In this document: positions 6,426 to 24,161 of the stretch, in pieces
Layout: each line of letters begins with the position of its first letter
Position numbering within the stretch: the first letter of the stretch is position 1
Origin: Nitrospira sp. CG24A
GTDB lineage: Bacteria > Nitrospirota > Nitrospiria > Nitrospirales > Nitrospiraceae
Reading direction: 5' to 3'
NCBI GenBank assembly: GCA_002869925.2
Contig: NEWT02000018.1
Span: forward strand, 71,991 to 135,990
Length of the DNA: 64,000 bases
Position numbers and translations under genes: made by a program
Notes under the pieces: generated by a model
Told to the model about the DNA's origin: nothing
What the model saw: the letters and a program-made list of their open reading frames with translations, nothing else
The model's database searches: none

Positions 6426-7196
6426 ATGAAGGTCGTTATACTGGCTGGAGGTTTGGGAACGCGGTTATCGGAAGAAACGGTGGCTCGCCCCAAGCCCATG
6501 GTTGAGATCGGTGGGAAGCCCATCATTTGGCACATCATGAAGCTGTATTCCCACTATGGCTTCCACGAGTTTGTGATATGTCTCGGATATAAAGGTTACG
6601 TAATTAAGGAATACTTTTCAAACTACTTCCTTCACACGAGCGATGTAACGCTAGACCTTCTTCACAATAAATCAGAGGTGCATCAGAAATTCGCCGAACC
6701 TTGGAAGGTCACTCTGGTTGATACCGGCGATCACACGATGACTGGTGGACGAGTCAAGCGGGTCGCACCCTATGTAAACGGTGAAACGTTTTTCTTGACC
6801 TATGGTGACGGTGTTGCGGATATCAATGTGCACGAGTTGCTCGAGTTCCATCGAAAGCACGGCAGGCTAGCCACGGTTACCTCCACCCAACCCAAGGGGC
6901 GTTTCGGAGCCTTGGCATTAGACGAACATGACTACGTAAGAGAGTTCACAGAGAAGCCCTCTGGTGATGGGAATTGGATCAACGGGGGATTTTTTGTGAT
7001 GGAGCCAGGTCTGTTTCAATACATTGCTGACGATCAGGCCGCGCTCGAGCAAGAGCCTATGGCGAAACTTTCTAATGAGAGCCAGTTGCTTGCCTTCAAG
7101 CACCATGGCTTTTGGCAACCCATGGATACCTTGCGAGACAAAAATTACCTTGAAGATCTGTGGGTAAGTGGCAAGGCACCATGGAAAGTTTGGTAG
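6426..7196 (+). CDS. rfbF: Glucose-1-phosphate cytidylyltransferase
   Basis: A 256-residue enzyme making CDP-glucose from CTP and glucose-1-phosphate, the first step to CDP-3,6-dideoxyhexoses. LAGGLGTRLSEET (residues 6-18) and RPKPMVEIGGKPI are characteristic of the RfbF/DdhA family; TYGDGVADIN is the metal/nucleotide site. Length matches the family. A clear ribosome binding site (AGGAGAGGAG) precedes ATG 6426. It is the first gene of the rfbFGH module. Confidence 0.97.
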   Translation: MKVVILAGGLGTRLSEETVARPKPMVEIGGKPIIWHIMKLYSHYGFHEFVICLGYKGYVIKEYFSNYFLHTSDVTLDLLHNKSEVHQKFAEPWKVTLVDTGDHTMTGGRVKRVAPYVNGETFFLTYGDGVADINVHELLEFHRKHGRLATVTSTQPKGRFGALALDEHDYVREFTEKPSGDGNWINGGFFVMEPGLFQYIADDQAALEQEPMAKLSNESQLLAFKHHGFWQPMDTLRDKNYLEDLWVSGKAPWKVW

Positions 7197-7198
7197 TC

Positions 7199-8329
7199 AT
7201 GGATCATCTGTTCGGCGGTGTCTATCATGGGAAAACAGTGCTCATCACGGGCCATACTGGTTTTAAAGGGGCCTGGTTAGCGCTGTGGCTTCAGTTATTA
7301 GGTGCGAAAGTAATTGGTTACGCGCTGCCCCCAATAACTGAACCGAATCTCTTTCGGCTTGCCAACCTTCAAGAGGGACTCATCCATGTTGCAGGCGATA
7401 TCCGAGATGCGGACAAAGTCCGAGACGTGTTGGAACAGTATCAACCGCAGATAGTGTTCCATCTCGCAGCTCAGTCGCTGGTTCGATATTCCTACAAGCA
7501 GCCGTTAGAAACCTATACAACGAACGTTTTGGGCACCGTGAACGTGCTGGAGGCGATTCGGTTGATGCCTAGTGTTAGAGCCTGTATCAACGTGACGAGC
7601 GATAAATGTTATGAGAACCGCGAGTGGCCCTATGCCTATCGAGAGAACGATGCAATGGGTGGATTCGATCCCTACAGTTCTAGCAAAGGCTGCGCTGAGT
7701 TGATTACGGCGGCCTATCGAAACTCTTTTTTCTTGAACGAAGATGCACATTCTGTTCGTCTCGCGAGTGCACGTGCCGGGAATGTAATTGGAGGAGGAGA
7801 TTGGGCTCAGGATCGTCTTATCCCTGATTCTATCCGTGCATTAACGGGTGGTCAGGCCGTGGTTGTGCGAAACCCTCACGCGATTCGTCCGTGGCAATAT
7901 GTTCTTGAGCCTCTTTCCGGATATCTGTGGTTGGGGGCCTGTCTGTGGAGCAAGCCATCTGGCTTCGACGAAGCTTGGAATTTTGGTCCTCATTGCACCA
8001 GCAATCTCCCGGTTTCTCAAGTCGTGAATCATGTAGTCGCTATTTGGGGAAATGGGACATGGAAACAGGCATCTGGGGCTCAGCACAGTGAACCCCACGA
8101 AGCCCGCACACTCAGCCTTGACATTACGAAGGCAAAGCTCCGTTTAGGTTGGCAGCCGGTCTTTTCTGTTGAGCAAGCAATCGCTGAAACCGTCAATTGG
8201 TATTGTGAGCAGTATCGCAATCCTGAGCTGGACATAAAAGCGTTCAGCACCGAGTACATCACTCGATATGTTCAGGCAGCTATGAGAAATGGTGCAGTAT
8301 GGACTGCCAAGCAGGAGAATCTTTCGTGA
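7199..8329 (+). CDS. rfbG: CDP-glucose 4,6-dehydratase
   Basis: A 376-residue extended SDR forming CDP-4-keto-6-deoxyglucose. GHTGFKG at residues 18-24 replaces the usual glycine motif in the way typical of RfbG, TSDKCYEN supplies the catalytic Asp/Lys pair, and PYSSSK the Tyr/Lys pair. ATG 7199, three bases after the rfbF stop, matches the usual family N-terminus. In-frame ATGs at 7160 and 7181 inside rfbF would add 13 or 6 residues. The gene ends GTGA, overlapping the GTG start of rfbH. Confidence 0.95.
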   Translation: MDHLFGGVYHGKTVLITGHTGFKGAWLALWLQLLGAKVIGYALPPITEPNLFRLANLQEGLIHVAGDIRDADKVRDVLEQYQPQIVFHLAAQSLVRYSYKQPLETYTTNVLGTVNVLEAIRLMPSVRACINVTSDKCYENREWPYAYRENDAMGGFDPYSSSKGCAELITAAYRNSFFLNEDAHSVRLASARAGNVIGGGDWAQDRLIPDSIRALTGGQAVVVRNPHAIRPWQYVLEPLSGYLWLGACLWSKPSGFDEAWNFGPHCTSNLPVSQVVNHVVAIWGNGTWKQASGAQHSEPHEARTLSLDITKAKLRLGWQPVFSVEQAIAETVNWYCEQYRNPELDIKAFSTEYITRYVQAAMRNGAVWTAKQENLS

Positions 8330-9666
8330 ATCCCGACAAACTTAAACAGGAAATTCTCAGCAAAGTCGAAGAGTACTATCGTTTGGTCCATAAAGGGTCT
8401 TCATCCTTCATTGCGGGCACGACAAAAATCGGCTATGCAGGCCGAGTCTATGACGAGCGCGAGATGGTGAACGTTGTGGACGCCGCGCTTGAATTTTGGC
8501 TGACCTACGGACGGTTTTCAAAAGAGTTTGAAAAGAAATTCTGCGACTTTCTAGGGGTGCGGTTCTGCAACCTGGTCAATTCGGGATCGTCCGCCAATCT
8601 CCTTGCCTTCATGTCCTTGACATCAGACGGTCTGGGGGACCGGAAAGTCCAGCGGGGTGACGAGGTCATCACTGTCGCGGCGGGATTTCCTACGACTGTG
8701 GCACCCATCGTTCAGTATGGGGCCATTCCCGTGTTTGTGGACGTGGACCTTCAAACCCTGAACGTAGATGTCTCAATGCTTGAACTTGCCTGGAGCACGA
8801 AAACTAAGGCGGTGATTCTGGCACATACTCTTGGCAACCCTTTCAATATCGATGCCGTCCAGCAATTTTGCCGAACCCATGGCGTATGGCTGATCGAGGA
8901 CAATTGCGATGCGCTGGGGTCTAACTATAAAGGTCGATATACGGGGAGGTTCGGAGACATCGCCACTAGCAGCTTTTACCCCCCTCACCACATCACGATG
9001 GGCGAGGGAGGGGCGGTCTATACGAACAACAAAGATTTGGCCCGCATCATCGAGTCCATGCGCGACTGGGGGCGGGACTGCTGGTGCCCGTCAGGTAAGG
9101 ATAATACCTGCGGGAAGCGGTTTGAGCACCAGTTAGGGGAGTTGCCCTTCGGGTATGACCACAAATATACCTATTCTCACTTTGGCTACAATCTGAAAGC
9201 CAGCGATCTCCAGGCGGCAGTGGGATGTGCGCAACTGGATAAATTGAAGCAATTCTGCGATCTGCGGAGGAGGAACTACGGTCTGCTTCGGGAAGGATTG
9301 CGACCAGTAGAGGATCGCTTTGTATTCGTGGAGCCGACTCCAGGGAGCGATCCAGCCTGGTTTGGATTTCTCATGATTGTCAGGAAGGACGCAGGATTTT
9401 CCCGCAAAGACGTCGTGGACTACCTGGAAAGCAGGCAGATCCAAACAAGGATGCTGTTTGCCGGGAATATCATCAAGCATCCCTGCTTTGACGTCATGCG
9501 TAAGGAGCAGAGAGGCTATCGGGTTATCGGGGAGTTGGTGAATACCAATCGTCTTATGGAAGACGCGTTTTGGGTCGGCGTATATCCCGGAATGGCCACC
9601 GAGATGGTGGAGTTCGTGGTTGAAGAGATCACTAAGTTCTGTAGCCGTGCCGGGTCAAGAAGCTAG
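8326..9666 (+). CDS. rfbH: CDP-4-keto-6-deoxyglucose 3-dehydrase (PMP-dependent E1)
   Basis: A 446-residue aminotransferase-fold enzyme that removes the 3-hydroxyl during CDP-3,6-dideoxyhexose synthesis, using pyridoxamine phosphate and an iron-sulfur cluster. In SFYPPHHITMGEGGAVYT the usual PLP-binding Lys is replaced by His, the hallmark of E1 dehydrases versus aminotransferases. Several Cys, including the DWGRDCWC segment and the LRxGxNLKAS-like region after it, fit the cluster-bearing family. GTG 8326 is chosen because CAGGAG lies nine bases upstream and it overlaps rfbG; ATG 8299 would extend into rfbG. The reductase partner E3 (DdhD/AscD) is not in this window. Confidence 0.96.
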   Translation: MNPDKLKQEILSKVEEYYRLVHKGSSSFIAGTTKIGYAGRVYDEREMVNVVDAALEFWLTYGRFSKEFEKKFCDFLGVRFCNLVNSGSSANLLAFMSLTSDGLGDRKVQRGDEVITVAAGFPTTVAPIVQYGAIPVFVDVDLQTLNVDVSMLELAWSTKTKAVILAHTLGNPFNIDAVQQFCRTHGVWLIEDNCDALGSNYKGRYTGRFGDIATSSFYPPHHITMGEGGAVYTNNKDLARIIESMRDWGRDCWCPSGKDNTCGKRFEHQLGELPFGYDHKYTYSHFGYNLKASDLQAAVGCAQLDKLKQFCDLRRRNYGLLREGLRPVEDRFVFVEPTPGSDPAWFGFLMIVRKDAGFSRKDVVDYLESRQIQTRMLFAGNIIKHPCFDVMRKEQRGYRVIGELVNTNRLMEDAFWVGVYPGMATEMVEFVVEEITKFCSRAGSRS

Positions 9667-9858: not shown

Positions 9859-10749
9859 ATGGCCGACCAACCGGCAGTACTGATAACCGGTGGAAGCGGG
9901 TTCATAGGGCGTAACCTCGTGGAGCATCTGACCGGCTCATTCTTGGTGGTTGCTCCCTCGCGGCGTGAACTAGACCTGTTGGATGTCGACGCCGTCGATA
10001 GGTTTTTCGGGTCGACTCACATTGATTTCGTCGTTCACTCTGCGACGACCCCGGGACATCGCAATGCCCAGCCGGCGATGGATCTCGTCGAGCGGGACAT
10101 GAGGATGTTTGCGGCGCTCATCCGAAACCGGGAACGTTTCCGGAAAATGGTCTTCATTAGCTCAGGATCGGTGTATGGCCGACGCCATTACCTACCGAAG
10201 ATGAAGGAAGAATTCTTTGGCTCCTATATTCCAGATGATTCTGCAGGCTTCTCGAAATATTGTTGCGCCTGTTGGTCGGAGCATATCGAGGGAGTTGTGG
10301 AACTCCGTCCGTTCGGGGTATTCGGGAAATTCGAAGACTATGCAATCCGATTTATTTCAAATGCCATCTGCAAGGTGCTCTTCGAGCTTCCGGTCACGAT
10401 CAAGCAAAACAGGAAATTCGATTATATCCACATCACTGACTTTGTCCGAGTCATAGAGCGATGTTTACGGGAAGACATTCCATCCCAGAGTTATAACGTG
10501 ACCCCGGAAAGTGCAGTAGAATTGAAAACGCTTGCTCAGATGGTGGCCCAGGTTACCGGGAGGGACGCGCCGATTCTGATCAAGGAGCCTGGTATGGGAC
10601 TGGAGTACAGTGGAGATAATGCTCGCCTTCAGAAAACCTTTCCCGGCCTCGAGTTGACCCCTCTGGACAAGAGCATTGCCGAACTGTATGTCTGGTATCA
10701 GGCACGGAAGCACACAATAAACCGGGATCTGCTCCTGAAGGATCGCTAG
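9859..10749 (+). CDS. NAD-dependent epimerase/dehydratase-like protein, catalytic Tyr position altered
   Basis: A 296-residue extended SDR with GGSGFIG at residues 11-17 and the Ser of ISSGSVYG near 101. Position and size suggest the reductase or epimerase finishing a CDP-3,6-dideoxyhexose, for example an abequose/paratose synthase or a YerF-type ketoreductase. In the expected YxxxK motif the sequence reads AGFSK: Ala129 occupies the Tyr position while Lys133 is kept. Tyr134 right after the Lys is not in register. Either catalysis uses another acid or activity is lost. AAGGAGG lies 7-13 bases before ATG 9859. Confidence 0.8.
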   Translation: MADQPAVLITGGSGFIGRNLVEHLTGSFLVVAPSRRELDLLDVDAVDRFFGSTHIDFVVHSATTPGHRNAQPAMDLVERDMRMFAALIRNRERFRKMVFISSGSVYGRRHYLPKMKEEFFGSYIPDDSAGFSKYCCACWSEHIEGVVELRPFGVFGKFEDYAIRFISNAICKVLFELPVTIKQNRKFDYIHITDFVRVIERCLREDIPSQSYNVTPESAVELKTLAQMVAQVTGRDAPILIKEPGMGLEYSGDNARLQKTFPGLELTPLDKSIAELYVWYQARKHTINRDLLLKDR

Positions 10750-10800: not shown

Positions 10801-11736
10801 GTGTTGGTGAAGACAGTTTCAGTGGTCACCTCGGCGTATAACGAAGAAGAGTCCATCGAAGAGTTGGCCAGAAGGTTACGGGCGGTTTTCGATGAGCTGA
10901 GTGCGTATCAGTTTGAAGCTATCGTCGTCGAGAATGGATCCGTCGATGGTACCTTCGATAAACTCAGACGGATTCATCAGGAGGATCCACGATTTAAGAT
11001 CGTTCGCCTCTCAAGGAATTTCCGTATGGATGGGGGAGTCACGGCGGGCTTACGTTTCGCCACGGGCGACGCAGCGATAATTATGACCGCTGCGCTCAAG
11101 GAACCGCCCGAGATGATCAAAGACTTCATTAAGAAATGGGAAGAAGGCTACGACCACGTGTATGGGATTGTGAGACGGAGGCCCGGCACCGCGTTCTTGC
11201 GAAAGGTTAACTCGCAGGTGTTTTATTGGATCATCAATAAATGTACCGGGGGCATGATTCCAAAAAACGTCAGCGACTTCCGATTGGCGGACCGGAAGGT
11301 CTATGAAGTCCTCAATCAAATGGACGAACGCAACCGGTTCCTTCGAGGGATGTTTGTCTGGACGGGGTTCAAGTCTATCGGCATCGAGTTTGAACGGGCG
11401 CCGAGGTTCCGTGGGCAATCCAAAGCTTATACATTGGGTGTTGTAGAGCTGGCCTTAAAGGGAATTTTCGCCTTTTCCAATATTCCCTTAAAGATGATTT
11501 CAATCGTTGGACTCATAGTTTCTGTCTTTTCGTTCGTGGCTCTCGCAATAATCATCATCCGGGTGCTTGCGTGGGGAGTGCCGTTCCCAGGGTTTGGAAC
11601 GATTATGGCGGTGATGTTGTTGATGTTCGGTTTCGGGTTTACCGCGCTTGGAGTGATCGCTGAATACATCGCGCTGATTTACGAAGAAGTGAAGCAACGG
11701 CCCAACTTCGTAGTCGGGGAAACCCTAGGATTGTGA
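10801..11736 (+). CDS. GT2 family polyprenyl-phosphate glycosyltransferase (GtrB/DPM1-like), atypical active site
   Basis: A 311-residue protein with an N-terminal GT-A domain (VVTSAYNEEESIEEL near residues 8-22) and two C-terminal membrane segments near residues 230-290, as in GtrB-type enzymes that load a sugar onto undecaprenyl phosphate. The family motif DADLQDPPE is replaced at residues 96-104 by TAALKEPPE, so both metal/nucleotide-binding Asp are gone while the PPE is retained. Start is GTG 10801 with AGGAAAGGAG just upstream. It overlaps the GtrA-like gene by four bases, the usual gtrA/gtrB pairing. Confidence 0.88.
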   Translation: MLVKTVSVVTSAYNEEESIEELARRLRAVFDELSAYQFEAIVVENGSVDGTFDKLRRIHQEDPRFKIVRLSRNFRMDGGVTAGLRFATGDAAIIMTAALKEPPEMIKDFIKKWEEGYDHVYGIVRRRPGTAFLRKVNSQVFYWIINKCTGGMIPKNVSDFRLADRKVYEVLNQMDERNRFLRGMFVWTGFKSIGIEFERAPRFRGQSKAYTLGVVELALKGIFAFSNIPLKMISIVGLIVSVFSFVALAIIIIRVLAWGVPFPGFGTIMAVMLLMFGFGFTALGVIAEYIALIYEEVKQRPNFVVGETLGL

Positions 11737-12170
11737 AGAAGCTGTACGCAAGACATTCCCAGAAGATTCAGTATCTTCTGATTGGCGGATGGAACACAGT
11801 GTTTGGTTACGGGGTCTTTACCGCCCTCTATTATTATGGGACAACACACCTTCACCTCCACTATGTCATTCCACTTGTGCTGAGCCACGTCATCAGTGTC
11901 ACCAGCGCGTATCTTGTGTATAAGAAGTTTGTGTTCAAAACGAAGGGAAATTTCATTCGGGAATATTGGCGCTTTTGTACGTTCTATTGGTTCTCGTTGG
12001 CTGCGAACCTCGTTCTTCTACCGGCATTGGTGGAACTATTTGGGCTGGATCCTGTCATCAGTCAAGGGCTTCTCATTGTTGTCGCTGCTGTGACCAGTTA
12101 TCTTTGGCATGCGCATTATACGTTTAGCCAGGACATGAGCTTGAAGAAATTAAATCCTTCCTCCAGATGA
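11733..12170 (+). CDS. GtrA-like small membrane protein (lipid-linked sugar flippase family)
   Basis: A 145-residue protein with four predicted membrane helices and the GtrA-family start YLLIGGWNTVFGYGVF near residues 14-29. Family members are thought to flip undecaprenyl-phosphate-linked monosaccharides across the inner membrane. It is coupled to the preceding GT2 gene (ATG inside the previous TGA), so both likely act in one glycan-modification step, with a GT-C type transferase such as the next gene product as possible acceptor-side enzyme. Confidence 0.88.
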   Translation: MKKLYARHSQKIQYLLIGGWNTVFGYGVFTALYYYGTTHLHLHYVIPLVLSHVISVTSAYLVYKKFVFKTKGNFIREYWRFCTFYWFSLAANLVLLPALVELFGLDPVISQGLLIVVAAVTSYLWHAHYTFSQDMSLKKLNPSSR

Positions 12171-12313: not shown

Positions 12314-14923
12314 ATGGATATATCAAAGAAGACACTCCTGCTAATCCATTGCTTTCTCTGTAGCATCGGGCTGACTAAAATAATTTATTGGCTTTCGTGG
12401 AAACTGCATGCTGCTCGGCTTACGGGGCAGCATGCGATCAATTTTCAGGAGTGGGCTATTTCGTTCTTTAATCCCAATAAACCGCAAGAGATGATCTTTT
12501 TTCTCGTGGCGGGTAGCAGCTTGTTTCTGTATTACATAGTGGTCTTACTCATCTTTAAAAAACGAGAAAGGTGGCTGACAAAGAGTTACACGCTGCTGGA
12601 GTATGGGAGTCTTAAGTTTCTGGGTTTGTACATTGCGTTTCCATTGATTCTCAATGTCGCTGTCGTCAGCTGGTTTCCCTCTGGTGCTCGCCCTTCAACT
12701 GCTGGGCTAGAATTTCTGTTGGGGGCCGTCTGGGTTGCTATTCTATCATTTCCCTTTTGGACGTCTCGACAGATTCCGAACAGTCTCGACTGGGTCACCC
12801 GCGTTGTCAATGTCTCTATGCGAGGGCTGGGGTGGTTCTATGTCGTGGTGGGGATTGTTGTGTTCGCATGTGCCCAATTCATCATGGCCATTCTTCCCTA
12901 CATTCAGGGGGAACTGCTCATGATCAATGAGTACATGGATATCCCTGAGTACACCCGAATGGGAGAGCACTACGTTTCCAATACCGACTATATGCGGGAG
13001 CATAACTTTGGTGGGCTTCTGAAATATGATCCTGTGGTTGACCATGGGAGTACCCCTCTTCCCCGACCAGGCACGTACATCGAGGTTCCAAGAACCGACT
13101 TGCTTGATCGGTTCATCGAAAAACATAAATGGGAATATCATTATGACGACAGGCTTGGAGCCTTGGTGATTGATGGCGCCTTGCATACTGGGGCTCATCA
13201 AGAATTGGCATTGGTATTTTACCAGGGAAAGGATCGAGTCCCAATCGATTGGTTACGCTACATCTCGAATGTGCCGCCCCCGAGAGTTGCGACTGCAGAG
13301 GAGCAAGACTTTCTTCGAAAAAATAGACGCACCTCGCTTGATATGCTTCCGAGAGCTGCGACCGCGGAGGAACAAGACTTTCTTCGAATGAATCAGTTTG
13401 AGCTGAATTGGCAGATTCTCAACCGTTGGGTGTTGCACCACCATAACTTCGTGCTTGGGCCGATCAACGAATACGCCTTAGGGAAGCCGCTAGAACAAAT
13501 CAATGCGCAATATGGGTTGTTCAACGTAGTAATGATGAGGTGGTTGCTGGAGAAAACCGGGGGCATTTCCTATCAGAACTACTTCCAGAAATGGTATGCG
13601 TGGTGGCTGGTCTACTACGTCCTGTTCGTCGCGCTGGCCTACCTGCTCTTGCAAAATGTGTATTACGTGACCTTGGTCTGCGTGCTGGCCTTTGGTTTTA
13701 TCAACAAGATCGACTATCAGTTCCTATTCCTGGGCCCAGGGCTCAACCCGATCCGACATTTTTTAGATCTACCGGTCACGGCTTGTCTGTTTTGGTATCT
13801 CAAGACCGCTAGGGCTGGTGTGCTGGTTTTGGCTCTGCTGTTTGGACTGATCGGGTTGGTGAACAATATACAATTCGGTGTGTTTCTTATTGTGGCTTTA
13901 GTGGTGACGCTGTTTGTCAAGGTCTGGCAGGAATGGGAACGCGACCGGCACCCTGAGGTGAGATGGGCAGTGGGGGCCGCGGTTGTCTTGGGACTCATCT
14001 TGCTATGGGGAATCCCTGGTAAGGATATGATGAGTCAGTATTATCGGGAAGGATTCTTGGGGTTCTCTACTAACGTTCAGCGGTTGTATCTCATTGTATT
14101 TGTCATAAGCGGGTGCTATCTGCTGCTCTTACGAGTGGAACATGTAGCGACTGAATGGAAGTATTTAGCCCTGTTTCTCCTCCTCTATTCGCAGGGCTTC
14201 CTCGCATACGGGCTCTGGGGGGGGACTGACAAGCATCTGCTCAACATTGCGTCTGTGTTGGTGTTAAGTGGAGTCGTGTTTCTGAAACTCTTGATCGACC
14301 AAAGCCGTCTAAAAAAGTACGAACAGGTACTGGTGGGAGCCTTAATTATCGGAGCACTCGGATTTGTGTATGTTCCCGGACTCCTTGCCTATTACACGAC
14401 AAAGAGTGAATACGAAAAGGTATTTGCGACTCACCGGACCTATGAGTGGAATCTAGAAAGGGCTCAGTTTAGGTCGACGATGGATCCAAAGTATTTTGTC
14501 GATTCCGTATCCTTGCTCCAGCAGTATGCGAATTCAGAAAACGGGGTCTACATCATCTCGAAGTACGATAACGTGTTGCCGTTTCTGGCAAAGAAGTATA
14601 GTGCAATGCCGTTCTTCGATGTTCCGTGGATGCTGCTTACTCAGAATGAGGTTCAACTTTGCGTGGAAAGCATTACGACGAAGAAACCGCTTTACCTGTT
14701 TGTAGATACGGATATTGAACGGAACTTGAATGGTGAGATTGTGCGGACTGACGGCAGTGCTTCTATCCAGCGGATTGACGAATCGCTTCTTCGTGTACAG
14801 CGGTTAAATCTGTTGAAGGGCGTTTTCGTCGCGGTTAAGGATGATTATGAGCTAGTAATGAGTAAGGGACTCTTGACCGTGTATAGGAGGAAGGGCAGCG
14901 GCGGGATAGAAAAACTGTCTTGA
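12314..14923 (+). CDS. Large multi-pass membrane protein of unknown function
   Basis: An 869-residue protein with an N-terminal group of membrane helices, an extracytoplasmic stretch of about 230 residues near positions 200-430, then a second block of about eight helices and a C-terminal soluble part. No family motif was recognised; the layout is compatible with a GT-C type glycosyltransferase or polymer assembly protein, and the GT2/GtrA pair upstream supports a glycan role by context only. Residues ~322-367 carry a tandem duplication with unit 23 residues (copies of ATAEEQDFLR). It lies 143 bp after the GtrA-like gene on the same strand. Confidence 0.75.
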   Translation: MDISKKTLLLIHCFLCSIGLTKIIYWLSWKLHAARLTGQHAINFQEWAISFFNPNKPQEMIFFLVAGSSLFLYYIVVLLIFKKRERWLTKSYTLLEYGSLKFLGLYIAFPLILNVAVVSWFPSGARPSTAGLEFLLGAVWVAILSFPFWTSRQIPNSLDWVTRVVNVSMRGLGWFYVVVGIVVFACAQFIMAILPYIQGELLMINEYMDIPEYTRMGEHYVSNTDYMREHNFGGLLKYDPVVDHGSTPLPRPGTYIEVPRTDLLDRFIEKHKWEYHYDDRLGALVIDGALHTGAHQELALVFYQGKDRVPIDWLRYISNVPPPRVATAEEQDFLRKNRRTSLDMLPRAATAEEQDFLRMNQFELNWQILNRWVLHHHNFVLGPINEYALGKPLEQINAQYGLFNVVMMRWLLEKTGGISYQNYFQKWYAWWLVYYVLFVALAYLLLQNVYYVTLVCVLAFGFINKIDYQFLFLGPGLNPIRHFLDLPVTACLFWYLKTARAGVLVLALLFGLIGLVNNIQFGVFLIVALVVTLFVKVWQEWERDRHPEVRWAVGAAVVLGLILLWGIPGKDMMSQYYREGFLGFSTNVQRLYLIVFVISGCYLLLLRVEHVATEWKYLALFLLLYSQGFLAYGLWGGTDKHLLNIASVLVLSGVVFLKLLIDQSRLKKYEQVLVGALIIGALGFVYVPGLLAYYTTKSEYEKVFATHRTYEWNLERAQFRSTMDPKYFVDSVSLLQQYANSENGVYIISKYDNVLPFLAKKYSAMPFFDVPWMLLTQNEVQLCVESITTKKPLYLFVDTDIERNLNGEIVRTDGSASIQRIDESLLRVQRLNLLKGVFVAVKDDYELVMSKGLLTVYRRKGSGGIEKLS
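13280..13395. repeat. 69-bp imperfect tandem duplication inside the 869-residue membrane protein
   Basis: The first copy begins at 13280 and the second at 13349; both start CCGAGAG and encode ATAEEQDFLR. The offset is exactly 69 bp, so the frame is kept. Mismatches between copies are mostly synonymous or conservative, which implies the duplication is not brand new. Confidence 0.8.
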
Positions 14924-15017: not shown

Positions 15018-16838
15018 ATGCAAAATCTCGTGAAAGTCTCTGATTACGTGGCTTCTTTTCTTGCCGATTTTGGCGTTCGCCATGTTTTTATGGTTACGGG
15101 TGGCGGAGCAATGCATCTGAATGATGCCTTTGGCAGGGAGACCAGGATTCAGTATATTTGCAACCACCATGAACAAGCCTGTGCTATGGCGGCGGAAGGG
15201 TATGCGCGAGTAACCGGGAAAGTTGGGGTGTTGAACGTGACCACCGGTCCCGGCAGCATCAATGCCCTGAACGGTGTATTCGGGGCCTGGACGGATTCAA
15301 TTCCTCTTCTCGTTATCTCTGGCCAGGTGAAGCTGGAAACGTGTATGGCTTCCTATCAGTTGCCGAAGCTCCGGCAACTTGGAGATCAAGAGGCGGACAT
15401 TATCCCAATGGTGCAGGGGATCACCAAGTATGCGGTGATGGTCAAGGATCCTCAGACCATTCGATTCCACCTTGAAAAGGCACTGTATCTGGCGAAATCT
15501 GGCCGGCCTGGCCCCTGTTGGATTGATATCCCTATCGATGTCCAGGCGGCGAAAATTGACCCTTCAACCCTTCCCGGGTTCACCCCTGTCGAAGGAGTCT
15601 CTCCGGATCGGTCAGATCTGTTGACGACGCAATGCAGGGAGGTAGCTGAAAGACTGATGGCCGCCTCGCGGCCCGTCATGATGGTGGGATCCGGAATCCG
15701 ATTGTCTGGGGCGGTGGAGAAATTTGAGCGGGTCATTGCTAAATTGCGAATTCCAGTTACCACCGCCTGGACGGCCCATGACCTCATCCCGACTGACCAT
15801 GAATTGTTTTGCGGGAGGCCTGGGACGGTGGGGGACCGTCCGGGGAATTTCACTGTCCAGAATAGCGATCTACTTATTGTAATTGGTTCACGGCTGAATA
15901 TTCGTCAGGTCAGCTATAACTGGAAAGCGTTTGCCAGGCATGCGTACAAAGTGCAGGTCGATGTGGACGAAGCCGAGCTGTCTAAACCGACAGTCCGACC
16001 GGATCTGGCTATTCCTTGCGACGCGACAGCATTTCTGGAGGAATTGGATCGGCAGCTTGACCGGCTCCTATACGATTCTTCACGCCATGCCGCGTGGTTG
16101 GCTTGGTGTCGGGAACGGGTGGCGCGGTATCCTGTTGTTCTCCCTCGACATCGAGAATTCAACGGAGCGATCAACCCCTATCATTTTCTCGACCGATTGT
16201 GCCGGTCCTTGGAGCCGGATGACGTCATCGTGTGTGGGAATGGGGCTGCCTGTGTGGTGACGTTCCAGGTGGCCCATATCAAACGGGGGCAGCGATTGTT
16301 TTGTAATTCCGGTAGCGCCTCAATGGGTTATGATCTGCCGGCAGCGATTGGTGCTGCCGTTGCGCGCGAGGGAAAGCGGGTCATCTGTTTGGCCGGCGAT
16401 GGCAGTATCCAGATGAATATTCAAGAACTGCAAACTCTCGTCCACCATCAGCTTCCCATCAAAGTCTTTGTCCTGAACAACGACGGGTATCTTTCGATCA
16501 GACAGAGCCAGAAAAATTTCTTTAATCTCCTGGTCGGTGAAAGCGAAGCTAGCGGGGTTTCGTTCCCTGATATGGTCCAGATCGGCCAAGCGTACGGGAT
16601 TCCATCTCTCCAGGTAGCTGGCCCGGATTTTCTCCCCACCATAGAGAGGGTCCTTGCAACCCCGGGCCCCCAGCTCTGTCAAGTGACATTGGACCCCGAT
16701 CAACAATTTGAACCAAAGCTCAGCTCCAAGTCTTTGCCGGACGGGCGCATTGTCTCGGCCCCGTTGGAAGACTTATATCCGTTTCTTGAACGGGACGAAT
16801 TATTTGAGAACCTCTTGGTGCCTCCGATGGAATACTAA
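15018..16838 (+). CDS. Thiamine-diphosphate enzyme of the acetolactate-synthase fold (YerE-like)
   Basis: A 606-residue ThDP enzyme with the standard three-domain order. The catalytic Glu is Glu52 in NHHEQACAMAAEGYAR, and the diphosphate-binding GDGSIQMN lies about residue 460 with NNDGY some 26 residues later. In the CDP-3,6-dideoxyhexose setting (rfbFGH just upstream) the best functional analogue is YerE, which transfers a two-carbon unit from pyruvate to a CDP-4-keto-3,6-dideoxyhexose to give a branched-chain sugar such as yersiniose. It could instead be an ordinary acetolactate synthase or a decarboxylase, but no small regulatory subunit or other branched-chain amino-acid gene is adjacent. 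Confidence 0.85.
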   Translation: MQNLVKVSDYVASFLADFGVRHVFMVTGGGAMHLNDAFGRETRIQYICNHHEQACAMAAEGYARVTGKVGVLNVTTGPGSINALNGVFGAWTDSIPLLVISGQVKLETCMASYQLPKLRQLGDQEADIIPMVQGITKYAVMVKDPQTIRFHLEKALYLAKSGRPGPCWIDIPIDVQAAKIDPSTLPGFTPVEGVSPDRSDLLTTQCREVAERLMAASRPVMMVGSGIRLSGAVEKFERVIAKLRIPVTTAWTAHDLIPTDHELFCGRPGTVGDRPGNFTVQNSDLLIVIGSRLNIRQVSYNWKAFARHAYKVQVDVDEAELSKPTVRPDLAIPCDATAFLEELDRQLDRLLYDSSRHAAWLAWCRERVARYPVVLPRHREFNGAINPYHFLDRLCRSLEPDDVIVCGNGAACVVTFQVAHIKRGQRLFCNSGSASMGYDLPAAIGAAVAREGKRVICLAGDGSIQMNIQELQTLVHHQLPIKVFVLNNDGYLSIRQSQKNFFNLLVGESEASGVSFPDMVQIGQAYGIPSLQVAGPDFLPTIERVLATPGPQLCQVTLDPDQQFEPKLSSKSLPDGRIVSAPLEDLYPFLERDELFENLLVPPMEY

Positions 16839-17593
16839 GCTCTGTTGACATTCAGGGTTCCCCCTCCGCATTGTTAATTTGTGCGGCACTGATCAACATC
16901 CAAGGGAGGGGGGATGGCAAGACGCGAGCTACGGGACGATCAATGGAAGCACATCAAGGATGTGTTACCTGGCAAGGCCAGCGATCCAGGGCGGACGGCA
17001 ACGGATAACCGCAAATTTGTGGATGCGGTGCTATGGATCGCACGGACTGGTGCGCAGTGGCATGAGCTACCGGAAAGCTTCGGCGCACGGAACAGCGTGT
17101 TCCAGCGGTACAACCAGTGGTCGAACGCGGGCGTATAGGAGCGCGTGTTCCGTGCCCTGTCAGGCGATCCCGACTTTGAATACGTGATGATCGACTCCTC
17201 CATCGTCCGCGCCCACCAGAACGCCGCGGGCGCAAAAGGGGGGCTCAAGAGACGGAAGCCCTTGGCCGGTCAGACTGCACGCAAGCCGAGCCGTTGCTGA
17301 CAGGGTTTCCCGCGCCATACGTCATTGCCGACAAGGGGTACGACAGCAAAACTATCGTCGAGGCTGTTGAACGTGCCGGCGCCAAGGCCGTCATCCCCCA
17401 CGCGCCTGTGTCAAAGAGCCGCGCGACACGGACTTCGCCCTGTACGCCGAGCGCTACCGCATCGAGTGCTTCTTCAATCGGCTCAAGCACTATCGTGCCG
17501 TCGCCACTCGCTACGCCAAACGCGACCGCAACTTCGCCAGCCTCATCTACCTTGCTGCTACCATGCTCTGGATGAAATGAATGTCAACAGACC
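16838..17593. mobile_element. IS5-family insertion sequence, decayed
   Basis: About 755 bp bounded by inverted ends: TCTGTTGACATTCA at 16841-16854 matches the complement of TGAATGTCAACAGA at 17578-17591 (14 bp, perfect). A short CTA(A/G) flank occurs on both sides and may be the target duplication. It lies directly after the YerE-like gene and is the only clear IS in the window. The transposase inside is broken, so it cannot move by itself. Confidence 0.88.
16914..17580 (+). pseudogene. IS5-family (IS427-like) transposase, disrupted
   Basis: The N-terminal part (ATG 16914; DDQWKHIKDVLPGK, then AVLWIARTGAQWHELP) is a typical small DDE transposase start. A TAG at 17136-17138 replaces the Trp codon expected in the GVWERVFR segment. 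After MIDSSIVRAHQ the frame shifts and about 90 bp of the usual GGFSTKIH region are missing. The later frame contains FPAPYVIADKGYDS with the second catalytic Asp region. A further frameshift near 17415 moves into the frame encoding ALYAERYRIECFFNRLKHY and the end LWMK-stop at 17578. At least three independent lesions are visible. Confidence 0.88.
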
Positions 17594-17759
17594 CTAGAAT
17601 CTATCTCAAAATTGATATTCGATCGCTGCACAGCGATGGAGCGGTTGGTATTTACTGATCGATTTGCTAGTTTCCTTGGATTTCAGGGTCTTATTTCACG
17701 GTGTCTTGTGCCTCGCATTGCCTACGACGTTCAGGATCCGATTTTGAGATAGGTTCTAG
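17594..17759. mobile_element. MITE-like palindromic remnant, 166 bp
   Basis: The inverted ends CTAGAATCTATCTCAAAAT (17594-17612) and ATTTTGAGATAGGTTCTAG (17741-17759) match at 18 of 19 positions. There is no reading frame between them. Ends of this kind are typical of IS-derived miniature elements. The IS5 copy is inserted within a few bases of its left end, suggesting insertion at or into this element. Confidence 0.65.
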
Positions 17760-17795
17760 TATCTGAACTAACACTCTACAATGGAGGATAGCGGC

Positions 17796-19250
17796 ATGCC
17801 AATTATCAACAACGCAACTGCGTTTTGGCGCTTAGGTGATCCAGTTTCGTCAAACAAACTGGTCGACGCTTTGGGAAGAGGAAACGATCTTACCCCGTAC
17901 CTGCGGCCTAGGCCGGTAACGCTAGACTTTCGAATGGGCTCAAACAACGCGCCGACGCAACAGCTTCATGGTTCGCTTGCCAAGTGGGGCAAGTGGAATA
18001 GGCTCCTCACTGCCGCTGAGAAGGGTGCGCTTAATGCAAAGCAAGCATGGCCGTTCAACGTAACCACCAGCCTCAGAGATGCAGTGGTCTATTTCATGCT
18101 TGATGAGGCAAGCGGATCTAGCATGTATACGGACGCGACTGGGAGGGGGAATACCCTGATATCATCAGGTGCGCCGGTACAGACCAGCGGACCGTTGGGA
18201 ACTGACAAGGCAACTTTGTTTTCTGCAGGTGTCTCTTTGTGGAGACCCTACACAGCTGACTTGCAGACTGGGAACTACAGTTGGACCATCTGCGGATGGG
18301 TTCGGCTAACGAATCCGATTCCAACTGGCTCACTTACTCAGCAAATATTTTGGAGCCAATGGGATACGTCTGGCACAACTTCTGGTACGAACTTGTACTA
18401 CGAGCCCGATGGAGCGACCTTTTCGCTAGACGGGGGCTTTCCCGAGTCACTCGGACAAGGGCCTACTATTACGAACACCACGCTCCACCCTACTGCAGCA
18501 ACCTGGTACTTCGTAATGGCCGAATACGATCCGGTTGCAAACACCTTAACTTATACAATCAACAACGACAGCGCTAAGCGGATCTCACTAAGCCCGATCC
18601 AGCAACCGACGCCAGTGCCTGGAAAAATAGGCAATGGGAGCCGCTTCCAGGTGAACCCGCAGTTCGCATTCGGTGTTAGATCGGGTTGGGACGCCCCACC
18701 CCTTGTAGATGGTAGCTGCCATGCCTACCTCCAGAGAAATTCAAACGTATCATTTGGAAACAATCCGTTCACCGTCTGGGGGTGGTTCAAAGCTGCACTA
18801 GGGCAACCCTGGCAACCCCAAACACTGTTGGGGTTATTCGATCCAACCACCGGCGAGCTGGAGTGGACGGTTCAGATTTCTGGTACTGTCTTGTATTGGG
18901 TTATCGGCGACGGTAGAATAAACTACTCTTTTAATAATCTAGTCACGATCCCCAATGACCTGAATTGGCACCTCTTCGTGTGCTGGTATGACAAAACAGC
19001 AGGCAAGCTTTGGGCAGTCCTCGACCACGGTACTCCCATCGGCGCCAACGTCAGTGTCCTACCGGGAGCGTTGTTTGGGAATAGGCGCTTCACTATTGGC
19101 GCGGCGTCCCGGTCAACTGGGAACGTCGGGCAACAATTCGTAGGATCACTCAACGCGGTTGGCATTGCACGAGGAAATCCAACAACTAACCCAGGTGGTG
19201 ACTTGGACGTACTCTGGAACGGTGGAAATGGCATAGTACTCGGTATGTAA
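17796..19250 (+). CDS. LamG/concanavalin-like multi-module protein, orphan
   Basis: A 484-residue protein built of LamG-like jelly-roll modules. The first is collapsed: its start (AFWRLGDPVSSNKLVDALGR) runs into its end (GSLAKWGKWNRLLTAAEKGAL) with the centre missing. A complete second module spans roughly residues 85-270 (LDEASGSS, DATGRGN, WTICGWVRL) and a third about 305-475 (FTVWGWFKA, WHLFVCWYD). No signal peptide is seen. ATG 17796 is preferred over 17781 because GGAGG sits eight bases before it. LamG modules of this type occur in phage tail and surface-attachment proteins; the substrate is unknown. It is separated from its neighbours by mobile debris on one side and an AT-rich region on the other. 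Confidence 0.8.
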   Translation: MPIINNATAFWRLGDPVSSNKLVDALGRGNDLTPYLRPRPVTLDFRMGSNNAPTQQLHGSLAKWGKWNRLLTAAEKGALNAKQAWPFNVTTSLRDAVVYFMLDEASGSSMYTDATGRGNTLISSGAPVQTSGPLGTDKATLFSAGVSLWRPYTADLQTGNYSWTICGWVRLTNPIPTGSLTQQIFWSQWDTSGTTSGTNLYYEPDGATFSLDGGFPESLGQGPTITNTTLHPTAATWYFVMAEYDPVANTLTYTINNDSAKRISLSPIQQPTPVPGKIGNGSRFQVNPQFAFGVRSGWDAPPLVDGSCHAYLQRNSNVSFGNNPFTVWGWFKAALGQPWQPQTLLGLFDPTTGELEWTVQISGTVLYWVIGDGRINYSFNNLVTIPNDLNWHLFVCWYDKTAGKLWAVLDHGTPIGANVSVLPGALFGNRRFTIGAASRSTGNVGQQFVGSLNAVGIARGNPTTNPGGDLDVLWNGGNGIVLGM

Positions 19251-20314: not shown

Positions 20315-20788
20315 CGTTCCGAAATCCGAACTGCTCTATGAATTGGTTAATTGCTCGGCGATCCATTGGCTGGCAGGATTGGGGTTGGTAAGTCTGTTGG
20401 TTCGGTGTGTCCTGAAATTCAGAATGGTACACATGTTGTCAATTTCGCAACTGCTGCGGGCGGAGAGTTTCCCGCACGCTACACCTGTGCTCACCCTCTA
20501 CGCCGACTTGCTATTTGCCCTAAAACTCAATATACGTTGCCCGATATGGGAGGCTATGGCTAAACCCGATGTGTGCCATTTTTTACAGGCTCAGGGCGAA
20601 CGGATCATGGCGTGGATTTCTGAGGTTGTGGCGTATCCATAAACCAACTGATCGTCAGAAGTCTCTCGAAGGAGACGGTTGGTTTTTCAGGACAGGCTTG
20701 TCACGCCATGACCGGGATTGTCGCGGCCTGATAATAGACAAAGTGCTGGTTTAAGCAGGTCTGCTCGTTTATCCCAAAGGAGTGCGTC
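20315..20788. other. Intergenic region with no supported gene
   Basis: Overlapping short frames (for example 20244-20642) have no recognisable domains and conflict with each other. It may hold decayed coding sequence. A two-part hairpin with a T run lies at 20641-20687 and a good ribosome binding site (AAAGGAG) just before the aldolase-like gene. Confidence 0.55.
20641..20687 (+). terminator. Probable intrinsic terminator
   Basis: AAACCAAC (20641-20648) pairs with GTTGGTTT (20678-20685) and an inner GTCTC...GAGAC pair closes the middle. The stem runs into five T. It lies upstream of the aldolase-like gene, separating it from the AT-rich region. Confidence 0.55.
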
Positions 20789-21601
20789 ATGAACCTAACA
20801 GAAAGAAAGATGGTAGACATACTTCGTGACTTGAAGGAGCACCATGCGGTGGTTGGAGTCAAAGCTGAATTCGAGGCCGAAGGGACCCGGATGGATGAAG
20901 CTCTCCGGTTAAAGGAAGTCCTGATGAAGGCCGATCTGGGGTTGACTCTCAAGATCGGGGGCTGCGAGGCGTTGAGAGATATGTATGAGGCTCGAGTGAT
21001 CGGAGTGTCGCGTATCGTGGCGCCCATGATTGAGACGCCGTATGCATTAAGTAAATTTCTTTCCGCTGTGAGTTTGGCCTTTCCAAAGGATGAGCGAGAA
21101 GACGTTGAGTTTGCCGTGAATATCGAAACTGCCACAGCGTGCAGTCACTTCGATGATATGCTGACTATGCCGGAGATCGGGGTGCTCGGCGGGATCGTAG
21201 TCGGTCGCGTGGATCTCTCTGGATCCTTAGGGTTGAGCCGCGACCACATCAATGGTGAAGAAGTATTCGGCATTACGAAAGAGCTGGCTGCTAAGGCCAA
21301 GTCTTGTGGACTAGAGGTGGCCATAGGCGGAGGTGTCTCGGCGGACTCGTTGCCTTTTTTTCGGGCGTTGCCTGACGGCCACCTTGACCGTTACGAAACT
21401 CGCAAAGTAATTTTTAGTTGTCCTGGCGCGCTAGGAAACGATTGCGAAAGGGGCATCTTGAAAGCGGTTGGCTTTGAGCTTCTTTGGTTGAAGAACAAGC
21501 GGGATTACTATCGAGGAGTTTCGATTGAAGACGACATGCGCATTCAGATGCTCGAAGCGCGGTACAAAAGTGGGATTCAGAATGCCGGCTTGTCAATATG
21601 A
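20789..21601 (+). CDS. HpcH/HpaI aldolase-like (citrate lyase beta-type barrel) protein
   Basis: A 270-residue TIM-barrel protein with HpcH/HpaI family features: [27 protein letters not shown] and [15 protein letters not shown], where the Glu residues of MIETP and NIET normally hold the metal and phosphate/pyruvate-type substrate. [15 protein letters not shown] matches the strand-7 region. These enzymes cleave or form C-C bonds with pyruvate or oxaloacetate as nucleophile. ATG 20789 follows a good AAAGGAG site. It is overlapped by four bases by the SDR gene; with the next two genes it forms a tight three-gene cassette whose product is unknown. Confidence 0.82.
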
Positions 21602-22269
21602 ATGAAGCGAGAACCGCCCTTATCACCGGTGCCTCGCGTGGCATCGGGGCTGCCATTGCCGCGCGACTGCAGAGCGAGGGAGTGCGGGTTCTTTCTCCTT
21701 CAAGCAAGGTATTGGATTTAGCCTCGACCTCATCAATCGATACGTACCTCGCACAGTTGACTGACCCAATCGATATTCTTGTCAATAATGCGGGGATAAA
21801 TCGTCTTGGGTCTATCGATGAGATATCGGGCAAGGATTTCGAGGAAGTGATCCAGGTCAATCTCTTGGGACACTTCCGGCTGACTCAGGGGCTGGCAAAA
21901 GGTATGAAAACCAGACGGTATGGGCGGATTGTCAATATCAGCTCCATCTGGAGCTTTGTTACACGCGAACGACGTGTGACGTATTCGGCTGCGAAAGCGG
22001 GTCTCAATGGATTGACACGAGCGCTAGCTCTTGAACTGGCTCCCTATCACATTATGGTCAATGCGGTGGCCCCTGGTTACATCAACACCGAGTTGACGAA
22101 GAAGAACAACATGCCGGAGGCGTTGGAAAGAATTGCCGAGGAGATTCCGTTGGGCCGTCTGGGAGAGCCGTCTGAGGTCGCAGAATGTGTGGCGTTCCTC
22201 TGTTCGCCAAAGAATTCATATATGACAGGCCAGGTCATTGTTCTTGACGGAGGCTACCTGTGCAGATAA
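21598..22269 (+). CDS. Short-chain dehydrogenase/reductase (FabG-like)
   Basis: A 223-residue classical [11 protein letters not shown] near residue 10 binds NAD(P), NNAG near 63, the catalytic Ser in NISSIWSF near 120 and YSAAKAG near 133 supply the catalytic set. The C-terminal PGYINTE and [14 protein letters not shown] are typical of FabG relatives. In this context it more likely reduces a sugar or cyclitol ketone than a fatty-acyl intermediate. It overlaps the aldolase gene upstream (ATGA) and the cyclase gene downstream. Confidence 0.9.
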
Positions 22270-23339
22270 TGACAGTGTCATCGGCGATTCGAGATTATCA
22301 GGTTGTCTTTGCTGAGACGATGGATTTTATCTCCGAACTCGAAACAACAAAGGACCACTATTACGTCATCGACAAAAAAGTCTGGGACCTGTATGGAAGC
22401 TCGTTTAAGTCTCTGAATACTGACTTGGCGTTAATCCTCCCAATTAGTGAAGAAGTTAAATGCCTAGAGACCGTCAAGACCGTCTACGACGCCCTCATGA
22501 AATGTTCGGCTAAGCGAAACATGACGTTGATTTCCATTGGCGGAGGCATTATCCAGGATATTACCGGGTTTGTTGCGTCCACGCTGTATCGTGGTATCAA
22601 TTGGATTTATGTGCCCACGACTTTGTTGGCACAGGCAGACAGTTGTATTGGAAGCAAGACGTCGCTCAATTACCAAGGGTATAAAAATCTCATCGGCACC
22701 TTTTTCCCTCCTACGAAAGTGTTTATCAATACGGCTTTCTTATCGACCCTCGAATCAGAGGATTTTTACAGTGGACTCGGAGAAGTCATCAAGCTTTACA
22801 TGATAGGGGGAGAATCTTCGGCGACAGCCTTTATCAAGGAGATTGACAAGATTAAGGAGCGAGATCGCTCAGCTCTGGCGAAAGCTATTCAAGAGGTGCT
22901 CCAAATTAAGCTGCAGTATATCCAGGAGGATGAATTTGATACAGGTAGACGGAACCTTCTGAACTTTGGTCATTGTCTGGGGCATGCGGTTGAGTCCACA
23001 ACGAATTTTCTGATTCCGCATGGGCAAGCAGTATTGATGGGGATTCTGTTCGCGAATATTGTTGCAAAGAACCGTGGGCTACTTTCAAAAAGCCGGTATG
23101 AATTTCTAAGCCGTGAATTAATTCTTGGGAATATCTGTGTGCAACACACTAGTGTTCTCTTCAATACGGATCAGATCTTCGAAGCGATGAAAAAAGATAA
23201 AAAACGAGTTGGGGAAGGGTTAGCTTTGATCATGATGCTTGACGATTATAGTTTGAAAAAATTCCAAGACCTTCAATATGATGAATTAGCAGCGGGCATG
23301 AAAGAGTTGGGGGCGACATTGAGAGTTCCGACAAGGTAG
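22260..23339 (+). CDS. 3-dehydroquinate-synthase-like sugar phosphate cyclase
   Basis: A 359-residue member of the AroB/sugar-phosphate-cyclase superfamily. [15 protein letters not shown] binds [20 protein letters not shown] and [15 protein letters not shown] form the active site, and the metal ligands appear in the Glu of [10 protein letters not shown] and the His of [10 protein letters not shown] and IPHGQAV. The match to AroB is imperfect (GSKTSLN for the usual GGKTGVN), and the cassette context suggests a cyclase on a sugar phosphate. GTG 22260 is preferred, with GGAGG six bases upstream; ATG 22269 in TAATG is an alternative. A second, housekeeping aroB would be expected elsewhere. Confidence 0.85.
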
Positions 23340-23579: not shown

Positions 23580-24161
23580 ATGGCATCCAGACGAACATCT
23601 CCACGAAGACACCGCTCACGTTCTACCGCGGCACCACTCTCTGTGCTCCGTGGGATCAAGCTGTTTGCGACCGACGTTGACGGGGTGTTGACGGATGGAG
23701 GAATGTACTATGCGGAGTCCGGCGATGAATGGAAGAAATTCAATACGCGCGATGGCATGGGGATTAAATTGTTGCAGCGGGCAGGAATCATCACGGCCAT
23801 CGTGACTCAGGAGCGAACGAAACTCGTGGCGCGGCGCGCCGAGAAACTCGCGATCCCCGAGTTGCACCAAGGGGTGATGGATAAGTTGTCGCTGGTTCGT
23901 GACATGTCGGCCCGCTATGGCCTCACACTGAGCCAGGTTGCCTATATTGGTGATGATATCAACGACCTTGAGACGCTGAAGGCGGTCGGATTTTCGGCCA
24001 CACCGGCCGATGGGATGCCGCAGATTGCTGCGGCGGTCGACTATATCTGCAAGAAGAAGGGTGGAGAGGGAGCAGTTCGGGAAATCATTGAGATGATTCT
24101 GGATGCCCAAAGGTCGAAAGTCGAAGGTCGAAGGTCGAAAGTCGCTGTTCCAAGTTCCTGA
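23580..24161 (+). CDS. kdsC: KdsC-like 3-deoxy-manno-octulosonate-8-phosphate phosphatase
   Basis: A 193-residue HAD phosphatase of the tetrameric KdsC type. DVDGVLTDGG at residues 32-41 holds the nucleophile and general acid, TQERTKLVARRAEKL the middle motif, and GDDINDLETL the Mg-binding acidic pair. It hydrolyses KDO-8-phosphate for lipid A inner core or a related nonulosonate phosphate. The last ~17 residues (RSK/EGR-type repeats) are encoded by a period-7 array and are not part of the fold. The first ~25 basic residues are also unusual. kdsA and kdsB are not in this window. Confidence 0.85.
   Translation: MASRRTSPRRHRSRSTAAPLSVLRGIKLFATDVDGVLTDGGMYYAESGDEWKKFNTRDGMGIKLLQRAGIITAIVTQERTKLVARRAEKLAIPELHQGVMDKLSLVRDMSARYGLTLSQVAYIGDDINDLETLKAVGFSATPADGMPQIAAAVDYICKKKGGEGAVREIIEMILDAQRSKVEGRRSKVAVPSS

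Follow-up and report, generated by a model that had tools for sequence, protein, structure and literature searches.

YerE-like enzymes add a 2-keto acid, in decarboxylated form, to CDP-4-keto-3,6-dideoxyglucose at C4; YerE uses pyruvate, while ErwE and MMAR_2332 favor longer hydroxylated 2-keto acids (PMC12247030). More than 200 clusters with YerE-like enzymes are known, and the sugar made by most of them is unknown (PMC12247030). The locus analyzed here, in a 64,000-nucleotide stretch of DNA from Nitrospira sp. CG24A (the window), resembles the pathways for yersiniose A, erwiniose and caryophyllose (PMC12247030) in the presence of RfbF, RfbG and RfbH, a YerE-like ThDP enzyme and a reductase, and in the presumed delivery of a 2-keto acid donor to C4, but differs from them in its donor arm, which includes an AroB-like protein and an SDR. 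In the literature searched, no paper was found that describes an AroB-like/SDR step in the donor arm of a YerE-like pathway or that links AroB-like genes to caryophyllose.

The AroB-like protein belongs by score to TIGR04425, “AroB-related putative sugar phosphate phospholyase (cyclizing)”, a hypothetical equivalog family without described function, and a search of the literature returned no paper mentioning this family. Other members of the same sugar phosphate cyclase superfamily are EEVS and 2-deoxy-scyllo-inosose synthase (DOIS). We propose that the family, known but uncharacterized, can be placed in a recognizable pathway, where it has an unexpected role.

The gene trio and its neighbors in the window

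Three overlapping genes at positions 20789-23339, all on the forward strand, were confirmed at the positions given in the original prediction. They code for a divergent HpcH/HpaI-type aldolase (20789-21601, ATG start, 270 aa), an SDR reductase (21598-22269, ATG start, 223 aa; PF13561, 182 bits) and the AroB-like protein of family TIGR04425, hereafter the cyclase homolog (22260-23339, GTG start, 359 aa). The aldolase and SDR frames overlap by 4 bp (ATGA) and the SDR and cyclase frames by 10 bp; a GGAGG motif is located 6 nt upstream of the GTG codon, and an alternative start (TAATG) is found at 22269.

The trio belongs to a larger cluster that recurs elsewhere and includes RfbF-RfbG-RfbH, a YerE-like ThDP enzyme, a reductase and glycosyltransferases, which bears out the suggested surface-glycan setting. 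The upstream genes, also on the forward strand, start with those for the glucose-1-phosphate cytidylyltransferase RfbF (6426-7196; TIGR02623, 435 bits, cut-off 300), the CDP-glucose 4,6-dehydratase RfbG (7160-8329; TIGR02622, 497 bits, cut-off 278) and the CDP-4-keto-6-deoxyglucose 3-dehydrase RfbH (8299-9666; NF011936, 712 bits, cut-off 423). An NAD-dependent epimerase/reductase-like protein is encoded at 9859-10749; it has weak NCBIfam matches, is 48% identical to the copy in locus L058 and represents a gene type present in every cluster of the class A described below, which makes it a candidate branch-ketone reductase with a YerF-like role. Next come three genes that recur in class A clusters, for a GT2 glycosyltransferase of the polyprenyl-phosphate type (10801-11736; NF047588, 227 bits, below the cut-off of 500), a GtrA-like membrane protein (11733-12170; PF04138, 68 bits) and a large membrane protein (12314-14923), a putative glycosyltransferase that has no Pfam match and phmmer scores of 290 and 312 bits to the copies in L058 and L064, respectively. 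The best PDB match of the ThDP enzyme (15018-16838) was JanthE (8rph), with 462 bits versus 252 bits for the next match, an acetolactate synthase, placing it closer to the characterized YerE-like enzymes; by this similarity, it is predicted to add a decarboxylated 2-keto acid to a CDP-4-keto sugar. Two more relatives of the ThDP enzyme from the same order of Nitrospirota had neither RfbF/G/H nor the trio nearby. The cluster as a whole very likely represents a pathway for 4-C-branched 3,6-dideoxyhexoses, the group to which yersiniose, erwiniose and caryophyllose belong.

Broken frames of a DDE transposase (16879-17600; PF01609, 19.4 bits, below the cut-off) are located between the ThDP gene and a frame with a LamG domain (17781-19250). 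With this remnant of an insertion sequence between the ThDP gene and the trio, the trio was probably separated from its other pathway genes by an insertion. The hairpins that had been described on both sides of the trio do exist, one being a terminator-like structure on the forward strand (20641-20685) with a long stem, a T-run and an inner hairpin (20661-20676), and the other a perfect 13-bp inverted repeat (23410-23422/23434-23446) with no T-run on the forward strand. Their use as boundaries is doubtful because many such sites arise by chance (11 terminator-like sites observed in the region, compared to 5.7 +/- 2.3 in shuffled sequences). A KdsC-like phosphatase gene follows directly after the trio (23580-24161); it was rejected as a member of the trio because it is the only KdsC gene in the genome and so serves Kdo as a housekeeping function.

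The G+C content is 0.44 in the cyclase gene, 0.51 in RfbFGH and 0.56 in the DNA after the island, and the aldolase was absent in 60 relatives. Given the low G+C content of the island and this absence, the gene set looks accessory and horizontally acquired.

The AroB-like protein, the aldolase and the SDR

The cyclase homolog scored 404.8 bits against TIGR04425 over residues 6-350 (curated cut-off 400), 130 bits against the Pfam DHQ_synthase profile and 272.8 bits against the aroB model TIGR01357, which is under the cut-off of 305. A second DHQ-synthase gene in the same genome, on contig C6, scored 375.9 bits with the aroB model (cut-off 305) and 227 bits with TIGR04425. In a tree that also contained AroB, DOIS and EEVS proteins, the TIGR04425 sequences formed a single clade of 13 rows (100/99) apart from all three, divided into the sub-clades A (98/93), which includes the window protein, and B (100/99). 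The cyclase homolog is hence neither the only aroB-type gene product of the genome nor grouped with AroB, and it is not the AroB of this genome. Its overall homology and its conserved catalytic residues might suggest an additional dehydroquinate synthase of the shikimate pathway; this reading was rejected as extremely improbable, since the genome has its own aroB, the TIGR04425 protein falls in a distinct clade and the members of this family are always found in glycan-type clusters with an SDR.

The departure from AroB noted earlier at GSKTSLN was found to characterize the whole family: the motif DSC[IM]GSKTS[LI]N occurs without exception in all 13 members, which come from two phyla, with GSKTS in place of GGKTG, whereas nearly all AroBs examined have GGKT or GGKN, and one has GGKV. 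The catalytic lysine is retained. All 13 members also have QD for GD, DEF where most AroBs have DER, and HG[QIV] for HGE. The window protein shares with AroB the equivalents of the zinc ligands and substrate residues of DHQ synthase (E194, H271, H287, K152, K197, K250, R264, N268, H275 and K356), and TIGR04425 retains the residues at the last five of these positions; class B members have a His at the K197 equivalent. Three of the five (R264, N268, K356) are changed in DOIS and all five, K250 and H275 included, in EEVS. Membership in the EEVS or DOIS groups was rejected on these active-site residues, as the window protein has no changes at the carboxylate-binding positions. In DHQ synthase, the substrate carboxylate is held by K250 and R264, and their conservation indicates that the cyclase homolog probably acts on a DAHP-like 2-keto acid phosphate.

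The predicted structure of the cyclase homolog (pLDDT 57.8) was too poor for use. All matches in a plasmid search were below 60% identity, and those listed were of the AroB, DOIS or EEVS types. When genomes were scanned with an alignment of two cyclase sequences, whose N-terminal patterns were poor, the matches were limited to Foetidibacter, the G174 locus and true AroBs.

The aldolase matches the Pfam family HpcH_HpaI (PF03328) with 28.7 bits (gathering score 25), as do 10 of 10 relatives, and it retains the metal ligands Glu113 and Asp142. As a single sequence it gave no PDB match, and its profile matches solved HpcH/HpaI aldolases; the single-sequence structure model (pLDDT 45.5) was too poor for use. 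It has the metal-ligand Glu/Asp pair and the order of the ET and D motifs in common with hydroxyketoacid aldolase (6r62), YfaU and GarL, but belongs to a divergent subfamily with a Lys near the canonical pyruvate-binding Arg, in a region where the alignment is uncertain. Relatives were found in three plasmids, with no match in phages and none in viral contigs. A plasmid from Novosphingobium humi (L035, 10037-12807) carries rfbF-rfbG-aldolase, the aldolase being 49-50% identical to that of the window, without ThDP, SDR or cyclase genes nearby. In Ilyobacter polytropus (L036, 12001-12774), a 39% identical relative is located in an operon with aconitase-like, PrpF and isocitrate-dehydrogenase-like genes, which suggests that this aldolase family is used in catabolism too.

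The SDR has the usual TGxxxGIG motif and the Ser, Tyr and Lys residues. Its gene precedes and overlaps that of the cyclase homolog in all 13 loci of classes A and B. FabG-like scores had raised a hydroxyacyl-CoA reading, which was dropped because there are no acyl carrier genes near.

Related loci and the slot beside the ThDP gene

TIGR04425 was identified in 10 of 395 Bacteroidota genomes, six of which have class A and four class B members. The three class A loci with full upstream sequence and RfbH (L055, L059, L063) share the order rfbF-rfbG-rfbH-ThDP-SDR-cyclase; RfbH was not found at L058, and L062 and L064 are truncated at the end of the contig or stretch. The aldolase gene follows that of the cyclase in five class A Bacteroidota loci, and in L063 a NeuB/PseI-like synthase takes its place. 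The search for the same genes in other clusters thus showed that gene order and adjacency recur, far beyond chance, but also that two of the seven Bacteroidota genomes with the aldolase have no cyclase. A self-contained cassette of the three genes is accordingly not supported: the ThDP enzyme is present in 7 of 7 genomes with the aldolase and in 6 of 6 with a class A cyclase, the cyclase in only 5 of 7 with the aldolase (hypergeometric P of 6e-12 for aldolase-ThDP and 3e-10 for cyclase-ThDP, values that are too small because the genomes are related).

Class B comprises the four Bacteroidota loci, G174 and Foetidibacter, with SDR-cyclase pairs in L034, L037, L056, L057, L060 and L061. While the class A branch of TIGR04425 is tied to YerE-type clusters, the other branch is tied to CMP-sugar-type clusters. 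The class B neighbors vary and include a GmhA-like isomerase, a Gfo/Idh oxidoreductase, a 2-hydroxyacid dehydrogenase, a CMP-transferase and YhcH, with an HpaI aldolase in 4 of 6 loci. NeuA-like CMP-transferases, some fused to a cupin, and PF04199 proteins were also observed, and these clusters point to an unknown sugar, probably one that is CMP-activated.

The slot adjoining the ThDP gene is usually filled by this aldolase, by a NeuB-like synthase or by a 4-hydroxy-2-oxovalerate pair (TIGR03217 and TIGR03215), contents from which we infer that the slot makes a 2-keto-3-deoxy acid. NeuB/PseI-like synthases adjoin YerE-like ThDP enzymes in L063, L094, L095 and L096, which reads as PEP-based donor supply; the synthase in L095 weakly resembles a GMP/PMI-type C-terminal (cupin-like) domain. 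The pair, with both genes scoring over the cut-off for 4-hydroxy-2-oxovalerate aldolase and acetylating acetaldehyde dehydrogenase, was identified in an RfbF/G/H-ThDP cluster (L097, 6219-8111), which is likely an erwiniose-type locus in Bacteroidota; the pair would supply a donor of the kind that ErwE prefers.

In L092 and L093, a HAD-IIA phosphatase gene is located between the ThDP and aldolase genes, exactly at the place of the SDR and cyclase in other clusters. The phosphatase-type L093 and the cyclase-type L055 are 86% identical in the ThDP enzyme and 83% in the aldolase, and they pair as sisters in the tree of ThDP enzymes (96/96). Between phosphatase-type and some cyclase-type clusters, the identity of the putative branch-ketone reductase is 69-75%. 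The SDR plus cyclase and the phosphatase look like alternative ways to deal with the phosphate of a 2-keto-3-deoxy acid. Since the former can be replaced by the latter, and the aldolase tracks the ThDP enzyme, the comparison points to the supply of a 2-keto acid as branch donor; the cyclitol or carbocyclic sugar that had been suggested as a possible product of the trio is not supported by it.

A candidate route to the side-chain donor

From the gene identities, the conserved linkage, the phosphatase swap and the retained residues, we infer the substrates, the order of the steps and a non-cyclizing outcome. RfbF, RfbG and RfbH would provide CDP-4-keto-3,6-dideoxyglucose. The aldolase, which likely makes the donor of the ThDP enzyme, would join pyruvate to a sugar phosphate with a short chain, the likeliest being a C4 aldose phosphate, and so form a DAHP-like 2-keto-3-deoxy acid phosphate. 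The SDR and the cyclase homolog probably work at the dephosphorylation step. The AroB-like protein would act on 2-keto-3-deoxyheptonate 7-phosphate by NAD oxidation, beta-elimination of the terminal phosphate and re-reduction, and would release an open-chain methyl ketone, a 6-keto-7-deoxy acid, without ring closure; the SDR would then reduce this compound to a terminally deoxygenated acid of the 2-keto-3,7-dideoxyheptonate type. The repurposed DHQ-synthase homolog might thus be a non-cyclizing phosphate lyase that, with the SDR, turns the CH2-O-phosphate end of the 2-keto-3-deoxy acid into CH(OH)-CH3, a role that we suggest only tentatively. The YerE-like enzyme would decarboxylate 2-keto-3,7-dideoxyheptonate and attach the resulting acyl group to the CDP-keto sugar at C4, and the reductase would reduce the branch ketone. 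The predicted end product, a 4-C-(1,3,4,5-tetrahydroxyhexyl)-3,6-dideoxyhexose for the O-antigen, has the constitution of caryophyllose; the stereochemistry cannot be read from the genes.

We give an even chance to the supply of the side-chain donor by the trio through this open-chain elimination, and the chances of an open-chain product are equally balanced. Support comes from the side chain of caryophyllose, which is 1,3,4,5-tetrahydroxyhexyl (PMC5706390), as a 2-keto-3,7-dideoxyheptonate donor would leave. The conservation of K250, R264, N268, H275 and K356 fits a 2-keto acid phosphate that bears a carboxylate. Ring closure would also cost the acid its 2-keto group and make it unusable by the ThDP enzyme, and the presence of the same branch-ketone reductase with the phosphatase or the cyclase version is what one would expect of a ketone that ring closure does not use up. 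Several observations count against the branch-donor reading. Ring closure in DHQ synthase is easy and partly spontaneous, so that with all catalytic residues kept a DAHP-like substrate might simply cyclize, and no residue change is known to prevent it. Furthermore, class B relatives (G174, Foetidibacter and others) occur with CMP-transferases rather than a ThDP enzyme, the Novosphingobium aldolase lacks ThDP, SDR and cyclase partners, the L063 cyclase is paired with a NeuB-like synthase rather than the aldolase, and the insertion remnant separates the ThDP gene from the trio in the window.

The ease of ring closure by AroB chemistry, the complete set of DHQ-synthase residues with the K250/R264 pair, and the word “cyclizing” in the NCBIfam name would all agree with a route in which the aldolase makes a stereoisomer or homolog of DAHP, the cyclase closes a dehydroquinate-type ring and the SDR produces a quinate-like acid that decorates the glycan, with the ThDP enzyme independently using pyruvate for a yersiniose-like sugar. 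We consider this unlikely, as the ring acid is no longer a 2-keto acid, no ligase or nucleotidyltransferase for it was recognized among the recurrent class A cluster genes, and neither the phosphatase swap nor the tracking of the ThDP enzyme rather than the cyclase by the aldolase is explained. The swap is accounted for if the chain is still phosphorylated when the ThDP enzyme transfers it, and if the cyclase, after removing the phosphate by elimination, forms a six-membered ring with the branch ketone, so that C4 of the sugar carries a carbocycle whose ring ketone is reduced by the SDR. The geometry would be that of DAHP with the sugar replacing the carboxylate; bradyrhizose and caryose, two bicyclic sugars, offer a loose precedent. 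Such a product is nevertheless quite improbable, since the kept K250 and R264 suggest a carboxylate rather than a bulky CDP-sugar, and cyclase-type clusters still have the putative branch-ketone reductase. A cyclitol is less well supported than the branch donor.

The same final donor, by the same swap logic, would result if the cyclase homolog and the SDR turned a C4 sugar phosphate into a 4-deoxytetrose before the addition of pyruvate, and HpcH/HpaI aldolases accept simple aldehydes. This reverse order is quite improbable: the conserved carboxylate pair suggests that the cyclase meets a carboxylate, and no DHQS-type enzyme is known to act on C4 substrates.

With the branch-donor reading, the slot beside the ThDP gene becomes a way to predict the side chain of YerE-like clusters, in which a phosphatase would stand for a hydroxymethyl end, an SDR with an AroB-like protein for elimination, the 4-hydroxy-2-oxovalerate pair for erwiniose and nothing for yersiniose. 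TIGR04425 would gain a first proposed function, and the unusual chain of caryophyllose a candidate biosynthetic route; if the reading is true, terminal deoxy groups could also be made without passing through a nucleotide sugar. Finally, a gene for a metallo-beta-lactamase-fold protein adjoins rfbG/rfbH in L055 (3326-4093) and also in L059, L092, L093 and L096.
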